Of a stretch of DNA of 64,000 nucleotides, positions 59,825 through 60,956 are shown piece after piece. Source of the DNA: Puniceicoccus vermicola (GTDB taxonomy: Bacteria; Verrucomicrobiota; Verrucomicrobiia; Opitutales; Puniceicoccaceae); NCBI RefSeq assembly GCF_014230055.1, contig NZ_JACHVA010000033.1, positions 62,001 to 126,000 of the forward strand. The letters run 5' to 3'. A model generated the notes under the pieces. It did no database searches, was not told the DNA's origin, and saw only the letters and a list, made by a program, of their open reading frames with translations. Made by a program: the position numbers and the translations under genes. Numbering within the stretch: the stretch's first letter is position 1; each line of letters opens with the position of its first letter.

Positions 59825-60643
59825 ATGCCGGAACGAAAACTGATCACCTTGAACATCGCCCACGGGCGCGGCCTTTCCTTCTATCAGGGGTTTCACTCTC
59901 CCAACGGAATCCGCAAGCAACTGGAGCGTATCAACAAGCTACTCGACCGCTTTCATCCCGATATTGTCTGCCTTCAGGAGGTCGATGAGTCTTCCCACTG
60001 GAATGGTCACATCAATCTCCTCGAAGAGATTCAGAACAAAGAGTCTCTTCCCTACTCCTACCTCGGCGTCCACAACCGCCGGGATGGCGCTAAAAAACTC
60101 GCCTACGGCAACGCGATCCTTTCCCGCTACCCCATTCGCGAGGCCGTGACCGTGCCATTCGGGAAGAATCAGCTCGGAGAGAAAGGCTTCCTCTTTGCCC
60201 GAATCGAGTTCCCCGAAGGCATGGTGTCCGTGGTCAATCTCCACCTCGATTTCCGTTCGCGGGTGAAACGCCTCGCCCAGGTGGAACAGGTGATCCGCTT
60301 CCTCCACGACGAACTCTCGATGCCTGGGGACCCTCTGCTGCACCGGCCCATCGTTTGCGGCGACTTCAACGCCCGGGCCACCTTACGCCGCGATGCCGTC
60401 GCACAACTTTTTGGATACATGAAGAGTCATCACGAGTACGCCCTCCACCCGGAAAAGGCGCGTTCGTTCCCGGCCCACAGTCCGATGAAATGCATCGACT
60501 TCATTTTCCTCCCAGAACCAATGAAGTGTCACGCCTGCCAGACGATCCGCAGCTACGTCAGCGATCACCGTCCGGTTTTCATGCGCTTCGAGATTCCCGA
60601 GCCGATCGACCGTGGAACCGCTCCCATCGCACCGGTCGAGTAA
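59825..60643 (+). CDS. endonuclease/exonuclease/phosphatase family protein
   Basis: 272 residues. The DNase I-like fold has LNIAHGRG, LQEVDESS, GDFNARATL and SDHRPVFMRF, with the metal-binding Glu, Asp/Asn pair and catalytic His in order. There is no signal peptide. The YbhP family in enterobacteria, of this kind, sits beside clsB, and here it is divergent from cls with 50 bp between starts; a lipid-head-group phosphatase is possible. The TAA stop touches the repeat element that follows. Confidence 0.85.
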   Translation: MPERKLITLNIAHGRGLSFYQGFHSPNGIRKQLERINKLLDRFHPDIVCLQEVDESSHWNGHINLLEEIQNKESLPYSYLGVHNRRDGAKKLAYGNAILSRYPIREAVTVPFGKNQLGEKGFLFARIEFPEGMVSVVNLHLDFRSRVKRLAQVEQVIRFLHDELSMPGDPLLHRPIVCGDFNARATLRRDAVAQLFGYMKSHHEYALHPEKARSFPAHSPMKCIDFIFLPEPMKCHACQTIRSYVSDHRPVFMRFEIPEPIDRGTAPIAPVE

Positions 60644-60912
60644 TACCGAATTTAGGAAGTTTTGATAGTTATGGCGGGATGGGAAATGAGTCTGAGCAAG
60701 GCGGCCCAATTGAAGGCGGGTCTGCGACCCGTGTTATTTGGGCTAACGCTGCTCAGGCTCATTTCCCGCCCGTCCCAAGGGGATGCGCCCAGAATCGAAG
60801 GTCGCGGCGTTGCAGGGATTGGAGCGTATCTCGATACGAACCCGATCCCTGCGCCTTGCGCTGCTTCGATTCTGCGCTGCACCATAACGGTCAAAACTTA
60901 CTAAATTCGGTA
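60644..60912. repeat. 269-bp inverted-repeat element folding into three arms
   Basis: Terminal inverted repeats of 31 bp (60644-60674 and 60882-60912, three mismatches) begin TACCGAATTTAG. Between them lie two long imperfect hairpins: 60676-60777, with GGGAAATGAG arms and a tip CGGGT-CTGCG-ACCCG, and 60790-60874, with CAGAATCGAAG arms and a tip CGTATC-TC-GATACG. The whole folds as a three-way junction on either strand. It has no protein-coding look. A MITE-like or REP-derived element is the likely nature. Confidence 0.8.
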
Positions 60913-60956
60913 TAAGATTGGCTCCAATCTGCACCCGATTGCCGGGAGATTCTTCG

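Follow-up and report, generated by a model that had tools for sequence, protein, structure and literature searches.

Directly behind a gene of Puniceicoccus vermicola for an endonuclease/exonuclease/phosphatase-type (EEP) protein lies a piece of DNA that an initial annotation described as a gene-less, three-armed inverted-repeat element of unknown type. The locus raises the question of what this element is, what moves it and what its folded interior may do. The window, the whole stretch of DNA analysed, is 64,000 nucleotides long, and all positions without a contig name refer to it.

Anatomy of the element and its genomic copies

The element is a discrete unit of 269 bp (60644-60912), TACCG...CGGTA, with the same ends and length at other copies in the genome. 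As had been noted, its left end abuts the stop codon of the EEP gene (59825-60643, + strand; the name is that of the initial annotation), and a convergent ORF about 125 bp past the element is read as a putative secDF. The terminal inverted repeats (TIRs) are 31-32 nt long (60643-60674 and 60882-60913), with 91% complementarity; inside them lie two further inverted repeats, separate from each other (60681-60698/60750-60767 and 60787-60800/60864-60877). Folded as single-stranded DNA, the element reaches -101.3 kcal/mol, whereas 100 dinucleotide shuffles gave -45.5 +/- 4.0 (z -13.9), which bears out both the three-armed layout and a symmetry beyond chance. In the minimum free energy fold the TIR stem closes the left arm, a 4-bp central hairpin (TCCC-AAG-GGGA) and the right arm. 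The coding content consists of mechanical 80-aa ORFs only, and 1-nt indels break their frame in some copies. The features are as follows, with the strand given where one is assigned.

60641-60643: target duplication TAA, left copy, the stop codon of the EEP gene
60644-60912: complete 269-bp element TACCG...CGGTA, same ends and length in other genome copies
60644-60674, + strand: left terminal inverted repeat
60675-60772: left hairpin arm, homologous to the right arm in inverted orientation (fold; the right-arm covariance model matches the opposite strand)
60696-60703, + strand: left-arm conserved internal-loop strand GCAAGGCG
60745-60752, + strand: left-arm conserved internal-loop strand AACGCTGC
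60773-60783: small central hairpin TCCC-AAG-GGGA between the arms
60784-60881: right hairpin arm
60804-60811, + strand: right-arm conserved internal-loop strand GCGGCGTT
60853-60860, + strand: right-arm conserved internal-loop strand GCCTTGCG
60882-60912, - strand: right terminal inverted repeat
60913-60915: target duplication TAA, right copy

The P. vermicola genome (G000) holds 24 near-complete copies, most of them exactly 269 bp long, together with internally deleted ones and fragments. The same three bases (TTA or TAA) flank both sides in 18 of the 24 copies and a longer duplication was found in none, so that the duplication first proposed is indeed present at other copies, but as 3 bp (TWA generally, TAA here) instead of TA; the TA before CCGAATTTAG is part of the element itself. 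The congener G001 carries at least 10 copies matching at 81-91%, the searched genome of the congener G002 contains none, and the EEP-secDF spacer is free of an insert in both. The element is thus multi-copy in its host and has relatives in a congener and, as described below, in a superfamily within the phylum, which sets aside the earlier worry of a single copy without relatives. In a crude ORF analysis, 14 of the 24 insertions fell in intergenic DNA, and divergent gene pairs had no insertion between them; four insertions were no more than 2 nt away from where an ORF ends, which is expected because the TWA target matches TAA stops. Palindromes of 14 bp (TACCGAATTCGGTA) flanked by TTA/TAA occur at G001:C11:28094, C20:55459 and C36:4977; they are possibly two TIR tips fused without the interior, as excision or deletion footprints.

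By every feature tested, its own transposase aside, the element is a non-autonomous DNA transposon (MITE): it is short and without a conserved transposase gene, has TIRs and a target duplication, is missing from copy-free sites and is dispersed in near-identical copies. What had been left as a mobile-looking element of unknown type can therefore be assigned to the MITEs, with IS5-like features.

Covariation and the internal loop of the arms

Two covariance models were used, the first of the right arm (13 sequences) and the second of 39 arms. The right-arm model recovers the left arm on the opposite strand, and the element is thus an inverted pair of one arm. Among 48 distinct arms, 88% of cells are paired compared with 62.5% in shuffles, and the covariation score is 0.627, compared with 0.188 in shuffles and at most 0.172 for slid partners. 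Both-side changes occur at 30 of the 33 pairs in these 48 arms, in an alignment fitted to the model; such fitting (alignments A2 and A3) makes the pair counts lean towards the model, and in the independent 13-sequence alignment both-side changes are already present at 13 of the 33 pairs. Between the stems lies a near-fixed internal loop, the two strands of which read GCGGCGTT and GCCTTGCG, and the most conserved columns across the phylum are those of this loop (GCGTT and GCCTTGCG).

The stems thus covary strongly, and the compensatory differences that the initial annotation had looked for are found. They do not by themselves prove a selected structure, as had been supposed, and covariation alone is weak proof of selection because template switching between palindrome arms also produces it: as stated in part of PMC8794818, template switching in quasi-palindromes can create and maintain hairpins, and inverted spacers and equalised arm motifs are given as its known products in a section of PMC8604942. 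Copy L022 (G000:C118:58047-58317) has an inversion of the arm spacer in the distal left arm, of the kind that template switching yields in quasi-palindromes, and in copy L054 the motifs of both arms have been made equal. These two copies show template switching at work.

Occurrence across Verrucomicrobiota and probable exchange of ends

The first right-arm model matches 18 of 372 genomes of the order Opitutales, and the second model matches 10 of 387 genomes in a sample of the phylum, two of which lie outside the class and one in another order of the same class. Genomes with arms include an Opitutales MAG (G048), Cerasicoccus maritimus (G116) and a Puniceicoccaceae MAG (G230). The length of the element is mostly 266-280 bp across lineages despite wholly different TIR tips, and the fold plan of TIR stem, arm, mini-hairpin and arm, as read from dot-brackets, is common to 12 of 14 representatives (the exceptions are G049 and G116). 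Matches in genome contigs outside Verrucomicrobiota are without the anatomy of the element and look like chance, and the exact core pattern is absent from the viral contigs searched. A search of the open literature, ISfinder not covered, returned no description of the element, which is not proof of novelty.

The tip types found include TACCGAATTTAG, TACCAAATTTAAG, GAGGGCGTCTAAAAA, GAACCTATCTCAAATT, GGGCGTGTCT, GAGCATGTTC, GTGTAGTGTTTCATAAATAC and GGCAGTGTTTTAAAT, and two tip types occur on the same arms within each of G048, G049 and G116. The core of G617 (tip GAACCTATC) resembles that of G681 (tip GTGTAGTG) at 69% (z 16), and the tips of the two agree at 7 of 18 positions; for the GAGGG type of G048 and the GAACC type of G032 the core comparison gives z 15, and the tips agree at 8 of 18. 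The GAACC types of G048 and G617 have tips identical at 17 of 18 positions and cores at only z 7.5; the GAACCTATC tips are almost unchanged in genomes of two classes, where the cores are less similar. How similar two cores are is not predicted by how similar their tips are, a pattern that points to a swapping of ends. The copies L193 (G032) and L115 (G048) carry an identical 16-nt stretch (ATGGCAGAGATGATTT) that adjoins, on the inner side, TIR tips of wholly different sequence, and this boundary is a visible junction of end exchange. A folded core with varying ends across the phylum suggests a parasite that keeps its core and changes its moving enzyme.

Candidate transposase and interpretation

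The 3.9-Mb Opitutales MAG G048 bears an unusually heavy load, with 161 TIR sites of one MITE type and about 50 of a second. The 161 sites are of type TNAGAACCTATCTCAAATT (GAACCTATCTCAAATT tip type), and many of them are paired about 280 bp apart and carry the same arms. An IS5-family transposase gene (NF033580, E 1.4e-49), in two frames, lies in this genome beside an end GAACCTATCTCAAATTCGAT, the one end seen of the matching insertion sequence. The MITE tips of this type match this end, which links the GAACCTATC subfamily to an IS5-type enzyme. A further candidate insertion sequence end in G048 (L112, GAGGGTGTCTAAAAAGTATAACGG) was rejected, having no transposase alongside. IS5 subgroups duplicate TNA or TA targets; the flanks of the GAACC type are TA/YTAR-like and the duplication in G000 is TWA. 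From the TWA duplication and the IS5-type enzyme of the sister subfamily, we infer that the mover of the window's own TACC-type subfamily is probably also IS5-like.

Searches with PF01609, PF13340, PF13359 and TIR patterns found no transposase with TACCGAATTTAG-type ends in G001 or in the own genome, the assembly of which consists of 143 contigs often broken inside insertion sequences. No widely spaced TIR pair that would be a partner for the TACCGAATT subfamily was found in G000 or G001, and the PF13340/PF13359 genes gave no partner with matching ends. Four sites GCCGGATTTTGCAAGTTTTGA, considered as own-genome partner TIRs, proved to be part of the coding sequence of an IS4-like element whose ends are different, and the IS5 genes of G000 were rejected as partners since their ends (GGCCGCGTGGACAAATTC) do not match the element. 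An IS5-family element with GGCCGCGTGGACAAATTC ends is situated at several contig ends of G000 (C111, C89, C110, C112, C105, C131 and C142).

The explanation that we consider likely is that of a MITE moved in trans, the interior of which is an old phylum-wide structural module with exchanged tips. A DDE transposase acting in trans would cut at the TIR tips and insert the element into TWA (TTA/TAA) sites. The interior would be no degraded remnant of one insertion sequence; it would be an old module of about 200 bp in which the same hairpin arm is present twice, in inverted orientation, and in each arm stems that covary freely flank a mismatched internal loop that is fixed. The module would have been maintained throughout the phylum as the tips were replaced to suit different transposases. 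Since one motif arm is present on each strand, this module would most likely work as folded or extruded DNA. It may aid movement or tolerance, for instance by drawing the two ends together in the single-stranded or cruciform state; alternatively, a host protein may recognise the loop. More tentatively, the element could be an independently evolving phylum-wide module, kept at about 270 bp in total length and built of a hairpin-arm pair in inverted orientation whose mismatched loop is invariant. It would survive over long periods by replacing its terminal repeats and thereby passing from one transposase to an unrelated one, and its arms would be recognised by a protein or act as structured nucleic acid.

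These explanations have to be weighed against an ordinary MITE family with functionless arms, in which template switching keeps the hairpins complementary and the shared core reflects descent and horizontal spread. The inverted spacer of L022, the equalised motifs of L054 and the ability of template switching to create and maintain hairpins, as cited above, agree with such a family. The same process would, however, erase the mismatched loop GCGGCGTT/GCCTTGCG, which is yet the most conserved part across the phylum; that the loop is kept argues for selection. The length is also kept near 270 bp, and we judge functionless arms rather unlikely.

That the element is a structured non-coding RNA gene which transposition has spread is improbable, although RNA families are recognised by just such a conserved loop between stems that covary, a number of copies are located at gene 3' ends, and a transcript in either direction would carry one motif arm because the element is nearly inversion-symmetric. 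Rfam 15 gave no match above the gathering score, and the motif is preserved on opposite strands in the two arms, the pattern expected if it acts as DNA. The stem mismatches show a slight excess of G-T over A-C (42:25 in the right arm and 10:6 in the left), but the ratio is only about 1.7, too even for a clear RNA signal. Two inverted hairpin units, non-autonomy and many mostly intergenic copies are shared with REPINs/BIMEs; movement by a single-strand (Y1, RAYT) transposase is nevertheless very hard to reconcile with TIRs of 25-35 nt, a 3-bp target duplication, a different motif, a length of about 270 bp and the lack of a GTAG-type tag. To our knowledge, Y1 enzymes make no target duplications. 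attC-like sites were dropped on a reading of the core sequences only.

Compared with known systems, the element resembles IS5-family MITEs in being short and without a conserved gene, in its TIRs, its TWA or TA duplication and its many near-identical copies, and in having ends common to an IS5-type transposase gene in one relative (G048); it differs in that its interior is no known insertion sequence leftover and is structured, conserved across the phylum and combined with many TIR types. Correia elements and the Nezha/Chunjie-type bacterial MITEs are likewise short foldable TIR elements, each tied, as far as we know, to one TIR type and one host group. We know of no conserved arm module in TIMEs, the Tn3-derived miniature elements. 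Those treated in part of PMC4133298 are, like the element, non-autonomous and moved in trans, but have Tn3-type ends.

The usual view of MITEs is that they arise by deletion from one insertion sequence and share the fate of its transposase. The unusual point here is a folded core that is conserved across the phylum independently of its ends. If this is true, a non-autonomous element can form a lineage of its own that lasts long and switches from one mover to another. The invariant loop offers a way to test whether folding of the DNA aids the movement of a DDE transposon.
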